A stretch of DNA of 41,728 nucleotides, from the IMG/VR virus record IMGVR_UViG_3300036884_000014, positions 1 through 41,728 of that record; one strand, written 5' to 3'. Positions 3,334-24,515 of the stretch are shown here, in pieces. Under the pieces are notes generated by a model. That model saw only the letters and a program-made list of their open reading frames with translations. It made no database searches and was not told where the DNA came from. Position numbers and translations under genes: made by a program. The first letter of the stretch is position 1. Every line of letters begins with the position of its first letter. Source of the DNA: a virus.

Positions 3334-4737
3334 ATGACAACCAAAGAAATTAAATTGTCGGATAAGTTATTTCTCAATGTCAAAGAAAGTTGTTTGACAA
3401 ATGGAAGTGCTGCGTTAGAAAATGCTTACCAAAACGAATTAGGTGGCATTAGTCGATTTCCGGGTTTAACTACTTTCGCCACTCTAGCTGGAAAAGAACC
3501 GACATATTTGCATGAGTGGCACGGCGACTTGATTGCCGTGAGTAGTTCTCGTACATGGCGGGTAGACAAGGATGGTAATACGTATGAGGCGACAGGAATT
3601 CAAATATCTGGTGGTAAACGAGTCATTTTTGATCGTACTCCAAATGAACTGATGATGGCGGCAGGAGGCCCGATAGTGCGTCTTGCGGCAGCACAAACTG
3701 AACTATTAAGTCCTGATGCGCCCGAATCAACTCATGTGGCGTATATCGGTGGATATGCGGTTGCAATTGAAACCAATACAGGTTTGTTTTATACAAGTCA
3801 GGGATCGGGTGATTATCAAGCGTGGAATGCACTTGATGTGTTTGCTGCGGATTCACGGCCCGACTTTATCAATTCCATGATAATCACGCCGTACAATGAA
3901 ATTATGTTGGCTGGTATTGACTCCATTGAACAATGGGAAAAATTACCGTTCGTATCGACTCCGCAATTTCAACGTAGGTGGGCTATCGGAGAAGGTACAC
4001 TGTCGCCATATACATTGACGTTTGCTGATAATGGTCTGTGGAGTTTGAATAAAAATCGGGAATTTGTTCGTTCGTCAGGTCAAGTTTCAAAACCTGTCAC
4101 TGATGATATAGGCAGAGTAATTGAACCACTGAACGATGAAGCTGACGCATGGGCTACACCAATTCTGATCGGTGGACAAAAATTTGTATTGTTGCAATTT
4201 CCGTATGCTACCAATGTCTATGGAACTCCCGGTGTAACTTTGCTCTTTGATTATCGACAAGGTAAATGGTTTTCGCTTTACGGATGGGATGCGGATTTAT
4301 GTACTAGAAAACGTTGGCCCGGATGGAGTCACTATCAAATTTGGGGTAGACATTTTGTTGGTGGCGATGGCGAAATCTACGAACTAAAAAACGATGTATA
4401 CAGTAACGAAGGTCTAGTTCAAAAAGTATTCTGGCGGTCTGGAAATCTTGATTACGGTAACGTCAGGATGGACAACATTTCACTGCGGTTGAAACGTGGG
4501 TTAGCTAATTCAAATGCGACACGTTCTAAAATGTCGATTCGAGTTGCCTTCGATGGCAAACCTTGGACAAAATGGTGTAGACAAGATTTAGGTCGTTACG
4601 GGGAAAATGCCAGTTGGATTGATTTCGGAGAAATGGGAAGTGGCGATACATTTCAGATTGAAGTTGATATGACGGATGCTACCGAATTTGAATTGATAAA
4701 AATGAAAGTTGATTTAACGCCCCTTAATGAAAGTTGA
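3334..4737 (+). CDS. P22 gp10-like packaged-DNA stabilisation / tail hub protein
   Basis: A 467-residue protein resembling the phage stabilisation protein family of P22 gp10. It has GGISRFPGLTTFA near residues 37-49, repeated beta-propeller-like blades (HEWHGDLIAVSSSRTWRV; FDRTPNELMMAAGGPIV at about 99-115; GGYAVAIETNTGLFYTS), and a tail with WVDFG-type strands. In P22 the protein closes the portal vertex after packaging and carries the tail needle and spikes. It sits right behind the tailspike, which fits a hub that the spikes attach to. The last three residues are altered by a 25-bp tandem duplication (4701-4750): without it the protein would end ...LTPLGG instead of ...LTPLNES. No clear Shine-Dalgarno site; translation is probably coupled to the upstream gene. 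Confidence 0.7.
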   Translation: MTTKEIKLSDKLFLNVKESCLTNGSAALENAYQNELGGISRFPGLTTFATLAGKEPTYLHEWHGDLIAVSSSRTWRVDKDGNTYEATGIQISGGKRVIFDRTPNELMMAAGGPIVRLAAAQTELLSPDAPESTHVAYIGGYAVAIETNTGLFYTSQGSGDYQAWNALDVFAADSRPDFINSMIITPYNEIMLAGIDSIEQWEKLPFVSTPQFQRRWAIGEGTLSPYTLTFADNGLWSLNKNREFVRSSGQVSKPVTDDIGRVIEPLNDEADAWATPILIGGQKFVLLQFPYATNVYGTPGVTLLFDYRQGKWFSLYGWDADLCTRKRWPGWSHYQIWGRHFVGGDGEIYELKNDVYSNEGLVQKVFWRSGNLDYGNVRMDNISLRLKRGLANSNATRSKMSIRVAFDGKPWTKWCRQDLGRYGENASWIDFGEMGSGDTFQIEVDMTDATEFELIKMKVDLTPLNES

Positions 4738-4761: not shown

Positions 4762-5517
4762 ATGGCTGGTCAAACACCACTTAGACCGCCGAGAACAACA
4801 GGCGATCCACTTACGGACTATGCTTCACTGATCGAATATTTGTGGTCATTTTATCGCGCAGTTGTAGCTACCTATGCCACTAAAGATGCGTTAACACTTG
4901 CTGCTGGCGGTTTATCAAACGGTCTTGGCACACTTGGTTCGTCACTGGATGCCAATAATGCAACTTTGCAACAGACGGTCACACTCTTAAATACAGTGGA
5001 AACTGTTGTCGCCGGACTTACCGCATCATATAGAACTATTTTGGAAATCAGTGGAAGTCATACGGCAGCGCAGGTAGCTGGTACATATCTGGCTTCAACG
5101 GTTGTTCCATTACTTGGAAACGGGGGAAGTACCGTTTATCCGTTAGCGGTGATAACGATTGCCGCTGCTGATTATCCCGTTGTGGGAACTATCGTACCCA
5201 AGTTCAGAATTCGTGCAACCGTATCCACAAATGACACCGCCCCGGCAAGTAATTTTACGTTCGGATTATATCCTTTAACACGGCCTGCTAGTGCGGGTGG
5301 TGCGGCGGCATGTATATATACGGTTGGTGCAGTAATAGTTGGTAGTAACGGCGCAACCTTTTCCGCGCCTGCGGCAAAAAGTACACTAGATGCAGTGGGC
5401 GCAGACTTCGATATTCCGGCAGACGGGGATTATGTAATTGGTGTTGTGACCACCGGAACTATTGCTGCCCTAGCGCACGTTCACGTAAACGCCCAATTAC
5501 AAATGAGAAATCAATAA
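4762..5517 (+). CDS. Fibre-like virion protein with N-terminal helical region
   Basis: A 251-residue protein. The start (TPLRPPRTTGDPLTDYASL) is the kind of short, proline-rich N-terminus seen on podovirus tail accessory fibres. Residues about 25-95 are helical with heptad-like spacing (LGSSLDANNATLQQTVTLLNTVETV), suggesting a trimeric stalk, and the remainder is beta-rich and rich in T, A and V. GGAGGT precedes the ATG. It closes the first structural block. The exact role is not recognisable; a fibre or spike accessory protein is inferred from composition and place. Confidence 0.5.
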   Translation: MAGQTPLRPPRTTGDPLTDYASLIEYLWSFYRAVVATYATKDALTLAAGGLSNGLGTLGSSLDANNATLQQTVTLLNTVETVVAGLTASYRTILEISGSHTAAQVAGTYLASTVVPLLGNGGSTVYPLAVITIAAADYPVVGTIVPKFRIRATVSTNDTAPASNFTFGLYPLTRPASAGGAAACIYTVGAVIVGSNGATFSAPAAKSTLDAVGADFDIPADGDYVIGVVTTGTIAALAHVHVNAQLQMRNQ

Positions 5518-9286: not shown

Positions 9287-9321
9287 GTTTGCTTGATTTG
9301 GTTTGCCCGGAGGAACATCGA

Positions 9322-12300
9322 ATGACTCAAAACGTAACTCTCCCTAATGGCAGTAACATAGCCTTTCCTGACGGAATGACTCCTGCCGACATGAATTCGG
9401 CAATTTATACTGCGTTCCCCCAATATGCCCCGGAACAAACAGTATTTCAAACCGCGCAAAAGGCACTGAAAGCTGCCGTTACTCCTTCCCCTGATGTTTC
9501 TGTTATGGCACAACCCACACAAGTTTCGTCCGGGCAAATCAAAAATGCCCCGAACTTGAATGTACCCGATACCGGAATTGGTTTTGACCAGAACGGTATT
9601 TCTGATACAACCTCTCGCGCAACTACCCAAGCAATCGTAAATCAACTTCCACCTGAACCAACTTCTCTTGGCGCAAATTCTGCTGCCTTGGAACCTGACT
9701 ATGTTACTCCGAAACCTGTTCCTGAAAGTTCGTTCGTCAAAGGTGCAAAAATTTTGAATTATGCCGCAACTGGTGTAACACAAACTCCGTTGGCAACCAA
9801 ATCGGCAGCACAAGAAATGTCTGCCGTACCGGATCAATCGTTGGCTTTGGCAAGAGATTCGCAAAACGCGAGTTCTAGTGTAGCGAATCGTTACGCGGCT
9901 TTCCAAGGAACACCTGACGAAATTGCAACACAGTTCAGAAATGAGGATTTACGTCGCAGTTATCCCAACGTGGCAGATATTACTTTGGGTTTGGCGGACA
10001 CTGCTAAAAGTATGGGTCGTTCGGCGGAGGATTTATTAGCTTCAATGGTTGATCCTGCAAGTAAAAGTGATTTAGGGGGCTTGACTAAAAATCCCGGTGA
10101 AACTGCCGCAAATACAATATCCGAAAATAATCGGTTAGACGTGTCTCCTGCGAGATATACGTCCAATACGCTTGCCGGAAAAGTTGCATCAGACGTGTTA
10201 CCTCTAGTCCCGGCGGTAGCGTCATTTTTTATACCGGGTATTGGCGAGGTTGTAGGCACAGCCATACTTACTGGACAATTTGGATGGAGTGCTGGAAAAG
10301 AGGCAATAGATAGTGGCAAGAGTTTAGGAAATGCACAATTAAAAACTATAGCACAAGGCGCATTAGGTTCGTCTTTGGGCGGTGTAGTAACGGGCGGAGC
10401 GACCAAGGTATTAACGCACCTTCCTCTTGTAGGTGACGCATTTGTTCCCGCCGCAGCGGATACAATTGCACAGTACGGCAAGCGAATGCTACAAGGTAGT
10501 GCGGGAATGGCGGCATTTGTGCCACTTACAACAGCGTTAAACCAAGGCATTGATATTGCGACAGGGCAACAGGAAGATCAAAGTAAATATAGTTACTCTC
10601 CGTCCTTAGATAGTCTGATATTGGGTGCATTGATGCCAGTGCCTCATGCAACTAGGGACTATATTCAACGTAATGTACTTCCAGAAAAAAATATTGTATT
10701 ATCGAACGGCGATACTGCAATGTCCCACAGTTACGGTGCAGTATTTTCTGGGGAAAAACCGGCATTGGAATTCATTAATGCCAACGGGTTGCAAAACGGA
10801 TATGAACCAAAAGGGGTCGCAATCAACGGCAAATTCGTTGGATGGGTGGTGAAAGCAAAAGACTTACCACAAGAAGATATTCCAACATTAAACGAAGTTT
10901 CAGGCACTGCGCCACCAGAACCTATACCCACTTTGCACGAAGCAGTCGGTGGAACACCGTCTGGAAATCAGGATGTAAATTCGCAGATGGCAAACGCATT
11001 CAGGCAAGCACAAGTGGATGCTGTGTATAAACAAGTTGAAGCACAAAAAAATCTTACTGAGAATGAAGCGTGGAATCTAAATACTGCTGCTGACCAAGTA
11101 GCGAAAATTTCGCAACCTAATTTTCCTACATCCGAACTCCAAACTGTTATGCAAGGAGAAAAAAATGTCACAGGAAACACGACTATACTTTCCGAAGTAC
11201 CTACAAAAAGCACTGGATCAGAAGTTAATAACCTTGGAGGAAGCACACCAAATGGCGTTCTCGGACATGATACACATGGGGTTGGATCAGGGGTCGATAA
11301 CGGACGCATGGATCAGCAAGGACTCAAAGCAATCCTCGATTCTGTTAAAACAGAGTCAAGTCAAGTTCCTAATGAACGGTCGCAAACCGAACTAAATCGC
11401 CGGGTTGAACAAGTACAAGTTCCGCAAGACCAACGCACGTCCGTAGAGAGACGGCACGATGAAATCATGCGTATGCAGGTTTCGCAAATGACACCGGAAG
11501 AATTGCGTCATACAATTTTGCATGACCAATTAACCGGGTTGCCAAATGCAAGAGCCTATGATGAATCTGCAAAGCAATCTCACGTAGCATTTTTGGAGGC
11601 TAACGGTCTGAAAGCCATTAATGATACATTCGGGCATGAAGCCGGGGATAGATTTTTGCAGGCAGTAGGAAAAGCGTTAGCCACGAAAACAAGTGAGCGT
11701 ACCGTTTCCTATCACCGAAGCGGTGATAAATTTTTGATTGATGGCCCTGACGAAAGAACTTTGAATGCCGCCATTTCCGCTGTTCGGAGAGAACTGAAAA
11801 AAACTTCATTGGATGTGCAAACTGCGACAGGTGAGAAAGCAACCTTGAAGGGCATTACCGTTGCGGCTGGAATTGGGAAAGACGTTGCCAGTGCCGAAAC
11901 AAGAATGATGGCTGATAAAGAACGTCAGAAAGCGGCAGGAGTTGCTGCGCGGGGAGAAAAACCAAAAGAGTTAATTTTTAAAGGGGAACAAGTCCAGCAA
12001 GGGGTTAAACCTGCCGAAAAAGGTGTCCAAACGCAAGGGATCGAAGGCACTCAGCCAATTCAAAGTCTAAGACCGATTATCGAAGGGATGATTCGCAACA
12101 AGACTGTTGCATCACGACCAAATAAAGCTGGTCAACGTCTTGACCTTGCCCCGGCAATTGAACGTGCCAAGGAAATCATGTCAGGAACGCGCACAGCGAG
12201 TCCGGCAGAGATTTCATGGTGGACACGTACTGCAAAGCGTTTTGAAGCCATAGATGCCCCTTCCGGCGAGTCTGCAAGGAAGATTGTCGCCCTATTGAAG

Positions 12301-15300
12301 TCTGGTAAACCAGTTGAAACAGAAACAGCGCGGGAGCAACTTAACAAAGCCGTTAATGAGTTACCCGGTAAACCTTCGTCAGAAAAAACCAAGACCGTAG
12401 AAGAAGCTACGGCGCAGTTGAATTTACAAAATTCGGTATCTGAAAAATCAGTTTCCGTTTCGCCTGAACAAACTGCAAACCGTGAAAAAGTTATCGCGCA
12501 GGTAAAGGCAGATCATCCTTCGTGGGCTGAATCTATTGACCAACTCCTAGCTAAAGGCAAACTTGTACTAGGAACAGAACAAGAAAACTTGCAACGTGCC
12601 GCCGAAATGCTCGCACAGAAAAACGGTACTACAGTGCAACACGAACTGGCTAGATTACGCAGTGCAACGCAACAAAGTATTACCGTGATTCGTGCAAAAT
12701 CTGAGGATGAAGCGCAGAAGATTGCTTCCGAAGTCGGTGGTCGTGTTGGTTCTGACTTGCAAGGATGGAAAGTTGAAACGAGTACGCCTGTTAGTCCATC
12801 GCAGTTTAGTAAAATAATTTCAAGATCGGTAGGTATTTCTCCAGACGAAATCACAACTAATCCATCTGCAAAAACTTTATTAGGATTACTTAATCGGGTA
12901 GAAAAGACAACGAGAACACCCGAATTGCGTGGTCTTATGGATGATAACGGAAATTTACATGTATGGTTTGCTTATGATACCATACATCGAGAAGGAGCAA
13001 AAGCGGCAGGCATACCATACGACTATACGAAACGATTGATTATAACAAAAAAAGACGGAATGCCGTATTTTCATTTTATTGATTTAGGTGTAAATAAATC
13101 AGATTTGGCTAGATACTTCACTGATAAAGTTTTATTCGATGTTCCGGGTAGCGGAATAGATAGTGGAATTGAGTACGCCAAAACATATAAATTAGACGCG
13201 GAATCGTCCGATAAATTATTGCAAGATTTAGGAATACAACCTCTGCAATATAGCAAAAATCAAATGGGTTTTTATAGCCAATTGAAAAACGCGATTGATT
13301 CGGCTTCGGATAAAATATTTACAACAGGGCGACAAGTTAAATCGTGGTTGGATGCCAACGCTGGAAAACTCGGAGTCAAGAAAGATGAAATATTCTGGAC
13401 AGGTCTGAACAATTATCTTGACGCGCAAAAAGGAAAAGTCAGCAAAGCCGATGTTCAATCGTTACTTGAAGGAAATGGTGTTCAGTTTAAGGAAGTTACG
13501 TTAGGAGGTGAGGGGGCAAAGCCGAAACCATATACCGTTGAGCAAGATGGTAATGACTGGAATGTGCTAGACCATAACCAACCTGCATTTCCAAACGGGA
13601 GAGTAGCTGATGGCCCGTTTGCTGACGAATTCGATGCCAAATCAAGAGCTGACATTCTTAATGACGATATTGAAAATGGCGACTACGTTGGCTGGACAAC
13701 AACGCCTACAATGGGTACTACAAAATATAGCGCCTATGCGCCTGACGGTGTAAAAAACTACCGTGAAATTCTATGGTCGTTTGCTGAAAAATCGGATAGT
13801 CCTGAAGGTATTGCAAAACGCAAAGCCGTGTTTGATTTATACGCCCCTCGTTTAGCCGAATTGTACAAAACATCAACCGATTACGCCGGAACTGATGAGC
13901 GTATCCGTGAACGTGATAATGCTAGAACTCAACATAGAATGCTATCGGCTACCCGTAACAAAGCTGCTGATGAAGCTTACACTTTGATGGCAGATCGTAA
14001 GTCCGAACTTCAGTACAAAGACCCTCATTGGGATATACCTACGAATATTTGGGCTAGAGTAAGCGATGGGGTAGACACGGAAGGAAACACAGTTTTGGTT
14101 GTACACGAATTTCAATCCGGGCACGGGCAGAAAGGAAAGCGTATAGGCTTTGCAAATCCGCAAGATGCTCAAGTAGCCAAAGAAAAATCCGAAGCGTTAC
14201 GTTCATCTTTCAATGAAGCCAATGATGCAGAGCGTTTCGCGGAAGCCGAATTGCACAAGCAACAACTGAATCTTTTACACAAAATGGGTTTAAAATCTTA
14301 CAGCGAAATTATTCTGAGCGGAGATAGACGAACAGAACTGACAAACGAATATAGAGAATTACAAGAAACTGACAAAGATTATTATAATGCACATGCCGCT
14401 TTAGAATCTGCTAGAAGGAAAACTTCTGATATTGCTTCAGAAATGGGAGAACTAGAACGCGCAGGCGATCAGGGCGATAAACCTCCACGTGCCCCATTTG
14501 TAACCGACACAAAATCATGGACAGCATTTGCTCTAAAACGAGTAATCATTTTAGCCGTAGAAGGTAATTATAATAAGGTTGCATGGGATACCGGCGAACA
14601 ACAGGCAGACAGATATAACCTTGCACACCAATTACAAAAGATAACCGCAATAAAACGAGGCGACACGTTTCAGATTCTTGGAATTGGAACTGACGGACAA
14701 TCTCATAATTTTGGGGATCATACCGTTGCAGAGTTACCAAATGTCGTAGGAAAAGAACTAGCCGAAAAAATAGCAAATCAAGAAATGCCGAATGAAGTGT
14801 ACGCAGGAAATGATTTGAAGATTGGCGGCGAAGGAATGAAAGGTTATTATGACCAGATCGTTCCTCAAGTTGCAAATGAAATTCTGAAAAAGGTTGGCGG
14901 TGGGAAAACAGGAAGTGTTAATGTCGGCCTTATACATAACATTGACAATATTTCTGGCGAAATGGTAATGAACAATCTTGGAATTCATGAATCGCAACAA
15001 GATAATTATTGGCACAAGCTGACATATAGAGAACGCACCCAAGCAATCGAATCGTTTAGAACCAGTTTGGAGAATCAAGCACAGCGGCAAGGTTTCACTA
15101 TTACTCCAGAGCTTCGTGCAAAAGTACAATCAGAAGGATTGCCATTATTCAGCAAACAAAACACATTCACACCCGGGTTCTACAGTCCTGAACTTGGTAC
15201 TGCGTTTGTCAATCATGATACAGTTTCCACGAAAGACGCAAGTGCAATTATTCTCCACGAAATGACTCACGCAGCAGATACTAAGACACATCCCACGGAT

Positions 15301-18300
15301 ACCGATGGAAGAATGACAATCGTTGGAAAACAAGTTGTAACGCGCATGAACACGCCCGGAGTAGCGGGACTGCCTGTTTATGCTCGTGTGTGGGATAGAA
15401 TGGTAAATGCGGGAGAAACAAATAATCCTCGTGAAGCATTGAATTATCTTGTGGAAGAAACATTGAATGATGCTAAACGATTCGGATATTCAAGACTTGA
15501 TTCTGGATTTATGGGATGGCTGCAACGTCAAGGCTTTGCTGTATCTCAGCCTGTAAAACAGTGGATTGCAAATATTCGTGCAGCAATGTACGAACACGGA
15601 ATTTCTGTAAAAGTCGAAGATTTGACAGTTGACGACATGATTGCCGTTGCGACTCGCGGAATGAAGCGTATTGCAGAAGGAAAACAAGAAGCCGCAGGAT
15701 TAGAAAATAAGGCAATAGGATTAGAAAATAAGGCAATCTTGAATGTTGGTTTGGATATTCCCGGTGGTGGAAAACTTAATCCAGAAGATGTGGTAAAAAG
15801 TATCGAACGACTCGGAGTAAAAGTTCTGAGTACGAATTTGCATCAATCAAATACCGAACTGACATTGGTTCCACGTCTGTCGCGCCCATTGACAAAAGAC
15901 GAAGTATATCAATTGTCAGTCGAACACAAGCAAGACGCGATTGCACAACGACTTCCAAACGGAACAGGTTTCCTCGCTGGCCCCAAGGCCGCAGATTGGG
16001 GAGACTATAATCCTGAATATTTCAAAATGCCGGACGGACAGTGGGCATCCAATGTTGACGTATTAAAGACTTCTGAGGCCGGATCAAAATTTGGATTAGT
16101 TCCAACATTTATTCAACAGTCGAAGAAAGAATCAGATCAACCAAAAACATTCAATGATGTCAAACAGACTATTGAAAATCTGGCTGGCATGGTAAAGAAC
16201 ACGAAGAACGTGCAGTCGGTATTGAACGGAACTACAGGCGCATGGGATGGTTTGCAACGTGCATTTGCTCCGCAGTATCGTTCCCCCGAAGCTAGAGAAA
16301 TCAGTCGTATTCTGATCGAAGGTTTAGGAACAAAAGAAATGCAAGGTATTCAGTTCCGCGCAAAATTAAATGCTGCGGTAAAAGTGAATGACGAAAAATT
16401 AACACTTGGAGAAAAGGCTAGAGACATTCTGCAAAAAGGTCTGACTGTTTCCGCCGACAAATTATTTGTTGGAAAACCCAAGGAAGAAAATTACGCATTT
16501 ATGCAAGCGATGGATATAGGTGATGAAAAATATTTTGCTGACCATCCTGAAATGAAAAGTGCTGCCGCAATCATCGGAAAAATGTTTTCTGATAAGGCGC
16601 GTGAAGTGCAAGAACTTGGTACAGGCGCACTTGAGACAGTCCGCGAAGATTATTTCCCGCATATCTGGAATCGTGAACCGTCCGGCGACACACAACGTCA
16701 GATCATGACTTCGCTTTCAAAACGTCCGTTTGAAGGTCAGAAAGGATTCACGAAACAACGTGTATTCGATGATTTCGCTGCCGGGATCAGGGCAGGTTTG
16801 GAACCTGTTACGACCAATCCACTTGACTTGGTACTGCTCAAGATGGAAGAAATGGACAAATACATTTTGGCGCACAGAATACTTAGAACAATAGCCGAAA
16901 ATTCAGATGCAGTGACGTTAATCAAAGCCGGGGATAAAAAACCTGTCGGGTACGAGGATGTAAACGGACGATACGGTTTCATTACCATCGGAAATGAAAA
17001 ACTTCGTTACGTTGCGCGTGAGGATGTGGCGCAAGTCGTCAATAATTACCTGTCTCCAAGTTTGTATCACAATAAATATGTAGGCCATATTTTCTCTGGA
17101 TCAATGACGGCAGCAAACACGTTGAACCAATTCCAGCTTGGCGTATTCTCCGCGTTCCACGCAGGATTTACGTCATTTGAATCGGTCATTTCTCATGCCG
17201 CAGTCGGTATCAAAGCATTGTCTGGTGGCGACTTTAAATCGGCGGCCAAGTATCTTGGCACTGCCCCGGCAGCATGGATTAATAATCCAAGATTGGGTAA
17301 TAAGATCGTAGAAGAAATGCTGAACAAAGGATCACATCCAGAGATGGCGCAGATTATTCAAGGTCTGCAAATGGCTGGCTTTAAATGGCAGATGGATACA
17401 CGGTTTAGAACTGATTCGACAAAAAAAATGTTGGATTCATGGGCAGAAGGCAGACCAGTTAGTTCCGCCACCCATGCTGTAAACGCTGTTGTCGAACAAT
17501 CTGCACGACCTATTTTGGAATGGCTTGTGCCACGGCAAAAGTTCGGTGTGTTTGGTGAAATGTATAACAAATGGATTGAATCTAATCCAAATGCAACACA
17601 CGAAGAACTTCGGAATTCCGCCCAACAAATTTGGAACCGGGTTGATTCACGTCTTGGACAAGTTGTTTACACTAGACTTTTCATGCACAACTTTACAAAA
17701 AACTTTACTCAGTTGTTACTTCGTGCGCCGGGTTGGACAGGCGGAACGATTTTGGAAGTCGGCGGAGGCATGAAAGACCTAGTGAAATACATGGGTACGC
17801 TGGCTACTGGAAATAATCCGGGGGAAATCACAGACCGGGCAGCATACACATTGTCTATGTTGTTAGTGACTTCGATTGCCAACGCTACACTGACTTACTT
17901 GTTTACTGGTACGCCACCGAAAGACTGGAAAGACTTGGTGGCCTTCCGTACAGGGAATGTTGATGAACATGGACGGCCTGAACGTTTCATGTTACCTACT
18001 TACATGAAAGACGTGTACGCCTACGCTCACGCACCTGTCAAAACGTTGCTGCACAAATCACACCCACTGTTGTCAGTAGTGTCTGATATAGCCAGAAACA
18101 GGGATTATTATGGTACGGAGATTCGCAACGAGGACGATTCGATTTTGCATCAAATTGGAGACTCGCTAGGGTATGTAGCCAGCGCGTTCGTTCCATTCTG
18201 GATGAAGGGTGTCCAAAAAGAACATCAACGCGGTGGAAGCCTTCTAACCGAGGCTATGCCGCTGGTCGGTGTAATGCCTGCTCCATCGGATATAAATAAA

Positions 18301-18666
18301 ACCCCTGCCGAATTGTTGATGGGTGAATACAGTGCCGATAGATTACCTCAAGGAGCCAGAACACAAGCACAGGCAGCTAAATCTGCGGCAGAACGAGATA
18401 TTTATAACGCCCTGCGTAAAAACGATACCGCAACTGCACTGCAATTGTATCAAAAGGATCAGGCCAAAGGTATACTGAGTCCACAAGATTACATGGCAGT
18501 AGCAAAATCATCGGAACAAGATTATCTGGTCAACACGTTTAATAAATTGACGTATGAACAGGCCGTGCGTGTCATGGCGGTTGCTAACAAAGATGAAAAG
18601 AAAAAACTGGCGTTCGTATTTGCCCGGAAGAAAGCATTACATTTGCAGAACGGCGGAAAACTATGA
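9322..18666 (+). CDS. Giant 3114-residue polyvalent virion protein with degenerate GGDEF and HExxH motifs
   Basis: ATG at 9322 is preferred to the in-frame TTG at 9289 because CGGAGG lies just upstream of it. In order: a short N-terminal module (NVTLPNGSNIAFPDGM, then D-M-x-x-A-I); hydrophobic Gly-rich helices at about 290-400 that may insert in membrane; a GGDEF-like domain at about 734-890 with HDQLTGLPNARAY at 734, NDTFGHEAGD at about 765-774 and S-G-D-K-F at 800-804 in place of GGDEF; a small module at about 1121-1156 also present as a separate gene (31302-31514); a large alpha/beta region at about 1480-1935 with HEFQSGHGQKGKR (about 1595) and GGEGMKGYYDQ (about 1830), which recurs in giant phage proteins; HEMTH at 1979-1983, a zinc-peptidase-type HExxH; and a long helical C-terminus from about 2315, like the LPD38-type regions of polyvalent proteins. 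Probably carried in the virion and injected; the individual functions are inferred. Confidence 0.8.
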   Translation: MTQNVTLPNGSNIAFPDGMTPADMNSAIYTAFPQYAPEQTVFQTAQKALKAAVTPSPDVSVMAQPTQVSSGQIKNAPNLNVPDTGIGFDQNGISDTTSRATTQAIVNQLPPEPTSLGANSAALEPDYVTPKPVPESSFVKGAKILNYAATGVTQTPLATKSAAQEMSAVPDQSLALARDSQNASSSVANRYAAFQGTPDEIATQFRNEDLRRSYPNVADITLGLADTAKSMGRSAEDLLASMVDPASKSDLGGLTKNPGETAANTISENNRLDVSPARYTSNTLAGKVASDVLPLVPAVASFFIPGIGEVVGTAILTGQFGWSAGKEAIDSGKSLGNAQLKTIAQGALGSSLGGVVTGGATKVLTHLPLVGDAFVPAAADTIAQYGKRMLQGSAGMAAFVPLTTALNQGIDIATGQQEDQSKYSYSPSLDSLILGALMPVPHATRDYIQRNVLPEKNIVLSNGDTAMSHSYGAVFSGEKPALEFINANGLQNGYEPKGVAINGKFVGWVVKAKDLPQEDIPTLNEVSGTAPPEPIPTLHEAVGGTPSGNQDVNSQMANAFRQAQVDAVYKQVEAQKNLTENEAWNLNTAADQVAKISQPNFPTSELQTVMQGEKNVTGNTTILSEVPTKSTGSEVNNLGGSTPNGVLGHDTHGVGSGVDNGRMDQQGLKAILDSVKTESSQVPNERSQTELNRRVEQVQVPQDQRTSVERRHDEIMRMQVSQMTPEELRHTILHDQLTGLPNARAYDESAKQSHVAFLEANGLKAINDTFGHEAGDRFLQAVGKALATKTSERTVSYHRSGDKFLIDGPDERTLNAAISAVRRELKKTSLDVQTATGEKATLKGITVAAGIGKDVASAETRMMADKERQKAAGVAARGEKPKELIFKGEQVQQGVKPAEKGVQTQGIEGTQPIQSLRPIIEGMIRNKTVASRPNKAGQRLDLAPAIERAKEIMSGTRTASPAEISWWTRTAKRFEAIDAPSGESARKIVALLKSGKPVETETAREQLNKAVNELPGKPSSEKTKTVEEATAQLNLQNSVSEKSVSVSPEQTANREKVIAQVKADHPSWAESIDQLLAKGKLVLGTEQENLQRAAEMLAQKNGTTVQHELARLRSATQQSITVIRAKSEDEAQKIASEVGGRVGSDLQGWKVETSTPVSPSQFSKIISRSVGISPDEITTNPSAKTLLGLLNRVEKTTRTPELRGLMDDNGNLHVWFAYDTIHREGAKAAGIPYDYTKRLIITKKDGMPYFHFIDLGVNKSDLARYFTDKVLFDVPGSGIDSGIEYAKTYKLDAESSDKLLQDLGIQPLQYSKNQMGFYSQLKNAIDSASDKIFTTGRQVKSWLDANAGKLGVKKDEIFWTGLNNYLDAQKGKVSKADVQSLLEGNGVQFKEVTLGGEGAKPKPYTVEQDGNDWNVLDHNQPAFPNGRVADGPFADEFDAKSRADILNDDIENGDYVGWTTTPTMGTTKYSAYAPDGVKNYREILWSFAEKSDSPEGIAKRKAVFDLYAPRLAELYKTSTDYAGTDERIRERDNARTQHRMLSATRNKAADEAYTLMADRKSELQYKDPHWDIPTNIWARVSDGVDTEGNTVLVVHEFQSGHGQKGKRIGFANPQDAQVAKEKSEALRSSFNEANDAERFAEAELHKQQLNLLHKMGLKSYSEIILSGDRRTELTNEYRELQETDKDYYNAHAALESARRKTSDIASEMGELERAGDQGDKPPRAPFVTDTKSWTAFALKRVIILAVEGNYNKVAWDTGEQQADRYNLAHQLQKITAIKRGDTFQILGIGTDGQSHNFGDHTVAELPNVVGKELAEKIANQEMPNEVYAGNDLKIGGEGMKGYYDQIVPQVANEILKKVGGGKTGSVNVGLIHNIDNISGEMVMNNLGIHESQQDNYWHKLTYRERTQAIESFRTSLENQAQRQGFTITPELRAKVQSEGLPLFSKQNTFTPGFYSPELGTAFVNHDTVSTKDASAIILHEMTHAADTKTHPTDTDGRMTIVGKQVVTRMNTPGVAGLPVYARVWDRMVNAGETNNPREALNYLVEETLNDAKRFGYSRLDSGFMGWLQRQGFAVSQPVKQWIANIRAAMYEHGISVKVEDLTVDDMIAVATRGMKRIAEGKQEAAGLENKAIGLENKAILNVGLDIPGGGKLNPEDVVKSIERLGVKVLSTNLHQSNTELTLVPRLSRPLTKDEVYQLSVEHKQDAIAQRLPNGTGFLAGPKAADWGDYNPEYFKMPDGQWASNVDVLKTSEAGSKFGLVPTFIQQSKKESDQPKTFNDVKQTIENLAGMVKNTKNVQSVLNGTTGAWDGLQRAFAPQYRSPEAREISRILIEGLGTKEMQGIQFRAKLNAAVKVNDEKLTLGEKARDILQKGLTVSADKLFVGKPKEENYAFMQAMDIGDEKYFADHPEMKSAAAIIGKMFSDKAREVQELGTGALETVREDYFPHIWNREPSGDTQRQIMTSLSKRPFEGQKGFTKQRVFDDFAAGIRAGLEPVTTNPLDLVLLKMEEMDKYILAHRILRTIAENSDAVTLIKAGDKKPVGYEDVNGRYGFITIGNEKLRYVAREDVAQVVNNYLSPSLYHNKYVGHIFSGSMTAANTLNQFQLGVFSAFHAGFTSFESVISHAAVGIKALSGGDFKSAAKYLGTAPAAWINNPRLGNKIVEEMLNKGSHPEMAQIIQGLQMAGFKWQMDTRFRTDSTKKMLDSWAEGRPVSSATHAVNAVVEQSARPILEWLVPRQKFGVFGEMYNKWIESNPNATHEELRNSAQQIWNRVDSRLGQVVYTRLFMHNFTKNFTQLLLRAPGWTGGTILEVGGGMKDLVKYMGTLATGNNPGEITDRAAYTLSMLLVTSIANATLTYLFTGTPPKDWKDLVAFRTGNVDEHGRPERFMLPTYMKDVYAYAHAPVKTLLHKSHPLLSVVSDIARNRDYYGTEIRNEDDSILHQIGDSLGYVASAFVPFWMKGVQKEHQRGGSLLTEAMPLVGVMPAPSDINKTPAELLMGEYSADRLPQGARTQAQAAKSAAERDIYNALRKNDTATALQLYQKDQAKGILSPQDYMAVAKSSEQDYLVNTFNKLTYEQAVRVMAVANKDEKKKLAFVFARKKALHLQNGGKL
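15697..15738 (+). repeat. 21-bp in-frame tandem duplication
   Basis: Two adjacent 21-base units differ only at the last base and encode GLENKAI twice in the giant protein, in a linker between the HExxH region and the following domain. In frame, so harmless to translation. Confidence 0.85.
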
Positions 18667-24084: not shown

Positions 24085-24113
24085 TTGACTTTTTTTTCTG
24101 TTTGTGATATGAT
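24085..24113 (+). promoter_or_regulatory. Promoter of the structured RNA
   Basis: TTGACT (24085-24090), 17-base spacer ending TGTGA, TATGAT (24108-24113). Start predicted at A24120. It is divergent from the leftward promoter; the two -35 boxes are 12 bases apart, so binding at the two may interfere. Confidence 0.8.
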
Positions 24114-24119
24114 TTAGTC

Positions 24120-24294
24120 AAGGTGGTAGAAACGATTAACCGTTGCGCGTAGCGAATAGCAGAACGAACGGACATTTTTACCATCGCCCAATTGCAGTCA
24201 GATGAAAGGAGTGTGATTCCGTCTAAATAGAGCCGATAGAGACTCGACTGTAACTTAACCGCAAGCGACTATCGCGTTCATTGCGGTTTTTTTT
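24120..24294 (+). ncRNA. Structured, independently transcribed small RNA of about 175 nt
   Basis: It has its own promoter and ends in a strong intrinsic terminator; no start codon opens a frame longer than a few codons. Visible helices: an 11-bp stem joining 24122-24132 (GGUGGUAGAAA) to 24175-24185 (UUUUUACCAUC) with two G-U pairs; inside it CCGUU (24140-24144) with AACGG (24167-24171); an 8-bp stem joining 24192-24199 (UUGCAGUC) to 24246-24253 (GACUGUAA) with one G-U; inside that, GUCU (24221-24224) with AGAC (24240-24243) and a small GGAG/UUCC hairpin. AAGGAG at 24206-24211 resembles a Shine-Dalgarno site but is followed by only MKGV- or 5-codon frames. I do not recognise the family; not 6S, tmRNA or tRNA by eye. 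Confidence 0.7.
24257..24294 (+). terminator. Intrinsic terminator of the small RNA
   Basis: AACCGCAA (24257-24264) pairs with TTGCGGTT (24281-24288); inside is a second stem GCGA/TCGC (24265-24268, 24272-24275). Eight T residues close it at 24287-24294. Confidence 0.9.
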
Positions 24295-24305
24295 GTGTTG
24301 AACAT

Positions 24306-24334
24306 TTGACAAAATCAAAAAAGTATGATACGAT
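24306..24334 (+). promoter_or_regulatory. Second rightward early promoter
   Basis: TTGACA (24306-24311), 17-base spacer ending TATGA, TACGAT (24329-24334). Start near 24341. It follows the RNA terminator by 11 bases and would give the helicase mRNA a leader of about 180 bases. Confidence 0.65.
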
Positions 24335-24340
24335 TCGAGC

Positions 24341-24486
24341 GTGGCAACGGAGTACAACCCTTGTTTTAACCTCTACACTAAGATTTTAAAGAGTTATACT
24401 TCGTAAGAAAACTATACTATGAAACTCCATAAATAAATATCTTAATACAGAGTTATATACGGTCTTTTCCCCTCCCAAAATAATAC
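24341..24486 (+). other. AT-rich untranslated leader with a repeated 9-mer
   Basis: About 146 bases with no credible gene; the only ATG frame is MKLHK followed by a stop and has no ribosome binding site. AGAGTTATA occurs at 24390-24398 and 24449-24457, 59 bases apart, and could be an operator pair. No terminator-like hairpin is evident. The whole gap 24021-24522 holds only the promoters, RNA and this leader. Confidence 0.5.
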
Positions 24487-24515
24487 TTGCTTTTTCTCTC
24501 CCGTTGTGCTAGTAT
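24487..24515 (+). promoter_or_regulatory. Third rightward promoter, starting at the helicase ATG
   Basis: TTGCTT (24487-24492), 17-base spacer ending TGTGC, TAGTAT (24510-24515). The predicted start, near 24522, is one base before the ATG at 24523, so the transcript would be leaderless. Confidence 0.6.

Follow-up and report, generated by a model that had tools for sequence, protein, structure and literature searches.

A probable small RNA family upstream of the helicase genes of uncultivated tailed phages, with conserved complementarity to the 3' tail of 16S rRNA

Phages seize host ribosomes with proteins. Phage T4 also makes two stable RNAs of unknown function, RNA C and RNA D, together with its tRNAs. 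A Shine-Dalgarno site devoid of a start codon, as in the STAB-SD sites, binds the 30S subunit and protects the RNA that carries it. GOLLD RNAs, often longer than 800 nt, have a universally conserved 3' region and a less conserved 5' region, sometimes with tRNAs in the linker; one of them follows a Met-tRNA, and pull-downs have been reported to contain ribosomes (PMC12286853). In Staphylococcus aureus, SprF1 binds ribosomes through a purine-rich stretch and attenuates initiation by interfering with the initiator tRNA (PMC8158120). Grad-seq of phage PhiKZ revealed small noncoding RNAs of 100-180 nt, and 30S fractions contained tRNAs of the phage and a fragment of one 5' UTR (PMC8545117). The term 16S is absent from a 2025 review of phage-derived small RNAs (PMC12197685), our coverage of the literature being partial.

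We analysed the record of an uncultivated virus (the window hereafter, meaning the whole stretch of 41,728 bases). Two sets of genes diverge: leftward from about 24020 lie those for a DNA polymerase, exonucleases, an annealing protein and an unknown protein, and rightward from 24523 those for a helicase and a primase. Among named phages, the top polymerase matches reach about 47% identity at most and are in Queuovirinae (e.g. Alteromonas phage R7M and Escherichia phage Seurat), which makes the window phage a distant relative of this group. A helicase search of IMG/VR provided two close relatives, L002 (74% identical) and L003 (66%); other helicase matches, among the matches listed, were at most 41% identical. 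The phages carrying the small RNA described here belong to a rare group of uncultivated tailed phages. Elsewhere in the window, one open frame of 3125 codons (9289-18666) is much longer than the adjoining ones.

An earlier note on this DNA had proposed that a transcript of about 175 nt with its own promoter and terminator lies between the two operons. The features that bear on this proposal are the following:

24085..24113, + strand: promoter of the RNA, TTGACT-N17-TATGAT, sigma70-type with an extended -10 (TG before the -10)
24120..24293, + strand: noncoding RNA, presumed extent from promoter to terminator; no Rfam match and no conserved reading frame
24122..24185, + strand: 5' hairpin domain (variable part) with an 11-bp closing stem; same domain in L002 at 4307-4374, absent from L003
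24190..24255, + strand: conserved 3' element of ~66 nt, common to the three phages; L002 4670-4737, L003 4202-4276
24206..24219, + strand: stretch complementary to the 16S rRNA 3' tail, AAGGAG-U-GUGAUUC
24230..24245, + strand: small hairpin with compensatory changes, GAG/CUC; GAC/GUC in L002 and GGCUU/AAGCC in L003
24257..24293, + strand: intrinsic terminator, 8-bp stem and T8
24306..24334, + strand: second promoter, TTGACA-N17-TACGAT, past the terminator; counterparts at L002 4789-4817 and L003 4319-4347
L002 4270-4298: promoter of the RNA, TTGACT-N17-TAAGAT
L003 4079-4107: promoter of the RNA, TTGCTT-N17-TAAAAT
L002 4490-4565 and L003 4120-4194: tRNA-Met(CAU) genes within the RNA unit

The promoter and the terminator were both found where the note had placed them, the terminator stem being made of AACCGCAA and TTGCGGTT (24257-24264/24281-24288), followed by T8. 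The promoter position would set the start of the RNA near 24120, and the gene is presumably transcribed. The two long-range stems that the note had drawn, of 11 bp (24122-24132/24175-24185, with two G-U pairs) and of 8 bp (24192-24199/24246-24253), pair exactly as described. Also in agreement with it, there was no usable + strand frame between promoter and terminator: none of those starting inside the RNA exceeded 20 codons, and the single ATG opened a frame of 4 residues. Nor did we find the conserved short peptide that the note had set against its proposal. One candidate, GTG-ATT-CCG-TCT-AAA-TAG in the window, was rejected, as it reads GTG-ATC-TAG in L003 and lies too near the Shine-Dalgarno sequence. 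With a putative promoter of its own, an intrinsic terminator and no conserved frame, the RNA has the sequence features of an independent bacterial-type sRNA gene. It matched no known family, as the note had supposed: cmscan of the window against all families of Rfam 15 yielded nothing above the gathering threshold, the best permissive matches being chance ones, and the same scan of L002 and L003 returned tRNA only.

Taken on the window alone, the promoter, helices and terminator are not above chance. Promoter-like sites numbered 5, for 3.3 +/- 1.6 expected, and terminator-like sites 3, for 1.6 +/- 1.2 expected, each about 1 SD above. Structure prediction, which the note had put forward as a check, gave a fold energy of -46.2 kcal/mol (z = -1.27), no better than chance, 21 of 200 shuffles folding equally well. 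What goes beyond chance comes from comparison: L002 and L003 have the parts in the same order and share the 3' element.

Upstream of their helicase genes, both relatives show the succession of promoter, RNA region, terminator and second promoter seen in the window, with strong terminators at the corresponding place and a promoter-to-terminator length of ~174 nt in the window, ~200 in L003 and ~470 in L002. When the copies of the 3' element were aligned two by two, 0, 1 and 0 of 1000 shuffles scored as high in the three comparisons. A model made without the window copy, from those of L002 and L003, and of the kind the note had suggested deriving from related phages, recovered the window copy as its sole match in the window (E 2.1e-4). 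The closing stem of the element forms in all three phages. In a MAFFT alignment of the three, 95.8% of cells were paired, versus 25-46% with the partner slid. Formal covariation on this alignment counted no double changes in helices, because gaps shift the compensating hairpin; compensatory changes were therefore checked pair by pair. Coming from three sequences, the conservation of the stems is support, not proof. Two further conserved blocks of the element, AAUUGCA and GUCURAAYAG, have no 16S complementarity. The second can form a hairpin in the three phages (three pairs in the window), and since this hairpin shares bases with the helices next to it and excludes them, the element may alternate between two forms.

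Conservation in relatives, as called for by the note for the promoter and the helices, was thus verified for these and for the terminator, with the exception of the 11-bp hairpin, which is absent from L003. As judged by these alignments, the conserved unit is the 3' element, which the note had overlooked, and not this hairpin. These findings indicate that an independent RNA family, not listed in Rfam and conserved in three phages, very probably exists.

Three is also the number of known members. With the window region or the RNA as query, a DNA search of 50,697 phage records gave no match even at E 10, and the L003 element as query gave weak short matches only. In pattern scans of IMG/VR, those of the matches listed that were not L002 or L003 looked like chance, as did the matches in prokaryote genomes; such matches were mostly in coding sequence or at ordinary gene starts (Shine-Dalgarno + ATGTCTRAA). 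A model built from all three copies (R1) found no copy beyond these in 80 distant helicase and 80 polymerase loci, and no further copy in 398 bacterial genomes, a search run without a positive control.

The 5' part differs from phage to phage, with the hairpin in the window, the hairpin and a tRNA-Met in L002, and a tRNA-Met alone in L003. Between L002 and the window, the hairpin stem shows 2 double and 4 single changes, with all 11 pairs preserved. The 5' part thus appears to be exchangeable and the 3' element constant. Neither ARAGORN nor Rfam RF00005 detected a tRNA in the window. Initiator tRNAs are recognized by G-C pairs in the anticodon stem and by an unpaired position 1:72. The tRNAs of L002 and L003 both lack a pair at 1:72 (C.A and A.A), which is unusual for elongator tRNAs, and the anticodon stem of the L003 tRNA contains four G-C pairs. 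As the L002 tRNA lacks the three G-C pairs and the D stem is elongator-like in both, we refer to these tRNAs only as initiator-like. In L002, ~295 extra bases (4375-4669) separate the 5' hairpin from the element, with the tRNA mid-way and several strong predicted stems; the tRNA was the sole Rfam match in this segment. The tRNAs in the relatives' units had escaped the earlier note, as had the complementarity to the 16S rRNA 3' end.

The best-conserved stretch of the 3' element reads AAGGAGGUGAUCC in L002, AAGGAGAGUGAUC in L003 and AAGGAGUGUGAUUC in the window. In L002 it is complementary to the 16S rRNA 3' end, GGAUCACCUCCUU, over 13 bases without a mismatch; the window and L003 stretches pair in the same way with one bulged base, making 12-13 bp across the three phages. 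The copies differ by single-base bulges and one C-to-U change, all compatible with pairing. The sequence of the 16S tail is well established and nearly universal in bacteria, presumably also in the host. Duplexes with the tail GAUCACCUCCUUA had energies of -15.4 (window), -21.6 (L002) and -18.1 kcal/mol (L003), and in the same order, 5, 0 and 1 of 3000 shuffles and 3, 0 and 0 of 2000 scrambled tails did equally well. All of the 49 ribosome-binding sites tested in the window (best -13.6, median -7.1) were weaker than the RNA's -15.4, and only 0.4% of 177-base stretches of the window paired as well as the RNA. The RNA thus contains a 16S-complementary stretch, as would be expected of a ribosome-binding small RNA. 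No start codon follows it at a usable distance in any of the three phages. In predicted folds, the stretch lies partly inside a small local helix; pairing with 16S rRNA must therefore pay for its opening, which leaves a net -6 to -10 kcal/mol.

From the family, its parts, the complementarity and its conservation, all read in the sequence, we infer binding to the 30S subunit and an effect on translation. The best reading, which we hold tentatively, would be that of an independent noncoding RNA that binds, through its 3' domain, the anti-Shine-Dalgarno tail of the 30S subunit. AAGGAG-N(0-1)-GUGAU would pair with the 16S rRNA 3' tail of free 30S subunits in a duplex longer than Shine-Dalgarno pairing usually is and, as no start codon is usable, the RNA would dock without initiating. 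Once docked, it might hold or mark 30S subunits, their anti-Shine-Dalgarno being masked during takeover; alternatively, the subunit might serve as protection for the RNA. The presence of an initiator-like tRNA-Met in the RNA unit of two phages also points to translation initiation. This reading rests on three family members. Against a role of the 16S pairing, sequences of the AAGGAGGUGAU type also serve as ordinary strong ribosome-binding sites and are common in phages, and the non-complementary blocks of the element are conserved as well. Furthermore, wholesale masking would be self-limiting and hurt the phage, since 35 of its 49 tested sites are Shine-Dalgarno-like (at or below -6 kcal/mol). 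An action confined in place or time, or a protective one, is just as possible.

We considered the possibility that the RNA is a stable, tRNA-associated phage RNA in the style of T4 RNA C/D or GOLLD/ROOL, acting with another partner (a host or phage protein, or RNA polymerase), the 16S match being incidental. The conserved 3' part next to a variable, tRNA-holding 5' part, the conserved blocks outside the 16S stretch and the structured three-way fold predicted for the window and L002 all fit this explanation, to which we give serious weight. Yet, a strong 16S complementarity, rare in shuffles, recurs in all three copies. The earlier note had thought of a trans-acting antisense or sponge RNA directed against host or phage mRNAs. 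A small independent RNA with a terminator is the usual make-up of such RNAs, but a crude, uncalibrated screen limited to phage genes disclosed no standout pairing with gene start regions, and we regard this role as unlikely. A sponge for CsrA was rejected on the count of GGA motifs, of which the window RNA has only two.

The note had also argued that the RNA is not merely a leader of the helicase gene, and this was borne out: two promoter-like sites (24306-24334 and 24487-24515) separate the terminator from the helicase ATG. The RNA is always directly upstream of the helicase operon and alternative helices exist, as would suit an attenuator switched by terminator read-through. However, all three phages have a promoter past the terminator, the window and L002 even two, and inspection disclosed no antiterminator pairing common to the three, so that we rejected the attenuator and consider a leader function quite improbable. 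Least probable of all is that a former tRNA unit has lost its tRNA, and that its promoter, trailer and terminator persist in the window without function. This would account for the missing tRNA in the window and for an L003 unit that is little beyond promoter, tRNA, element and terminator, but not for the retention of promoter, element, stems and terminator in the window, nor for the 5' hairpin that the window and L002 keep through compensatory changes.

The site at 24487-24515 (TTGCTT-N17-TAGTAT, extended -10) is separated by 7 bases from the helicase ATG (24523), and L002 has the same promoter-like site at 4964-4992, with its ATG at 5001. As the site lies only 7-8 bases from the ATG and a Shine-Dalgarno sequence is missing, the helicase mRNA of these two phages may be leaderless; L003 has no such site near the ATG, and we do not build on this. 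A leaderless helicase mRNA would not need the masked 16S tail. A takeover of initiation by RNA only, in which the small RNA masks the tail, with an initiator-like tRNA in two of three phages and beside a possibly leaderless helicase mRNA in two of three, is unlikely as a whole. Past the second promoter, 24336-24420 (CGAGCGTG..AACGGAGTAYAACCCT..TTTTAA) is conserved in L002 (~4820-4900) and holds no gene; it is possibly another RNA element.

If the RNA does dock on the anti-Shine-Dalgarno tail, it would represent an RNA route to ribosome takeover and a test case for shifting translation among host, phage and leaderless mRNAs. Even without 30S docking, it would remain a conserved RNA family that Rfam does not list and whose tRNA part is exchangeable.

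Compared with known systems, the likeness to T4 RNA C and RNA D is one of description, T4 being unrelated to the window phage. STAB-SD sites are found in mRNA 5' untranslated regions, whereas the phage RNA ends at its own terminator, without a gene. The PhiKZ RNAs are thought to derive from UTRs, unlike the window RNA with its own promoter and terminator, and 16S complementarity is not reported for them in the accessible text of that study (PMC8545117). SprF1 acts through its other end as an antitoxin of a bacterial type I system and lacks the phage helicase and tRNA context, and we do not claim homology. GOLLD and ROOL are RNAs of phages and prophages near tRNAs, with a conserved 3' and a variable 5' part that here holds a tRNA in two of three phages; membership fails on both model and size, as their Rfam covariance models gave no match in the window, L002 or L003 and the RNAs described here measure only ~174 to ~470 nt. 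GOLLD and ROOL are thus the nearest in anatomy, and SprF1, as a ribosome-binding small RNA, comes nearest to the mechanism proposed for the phage RNA.
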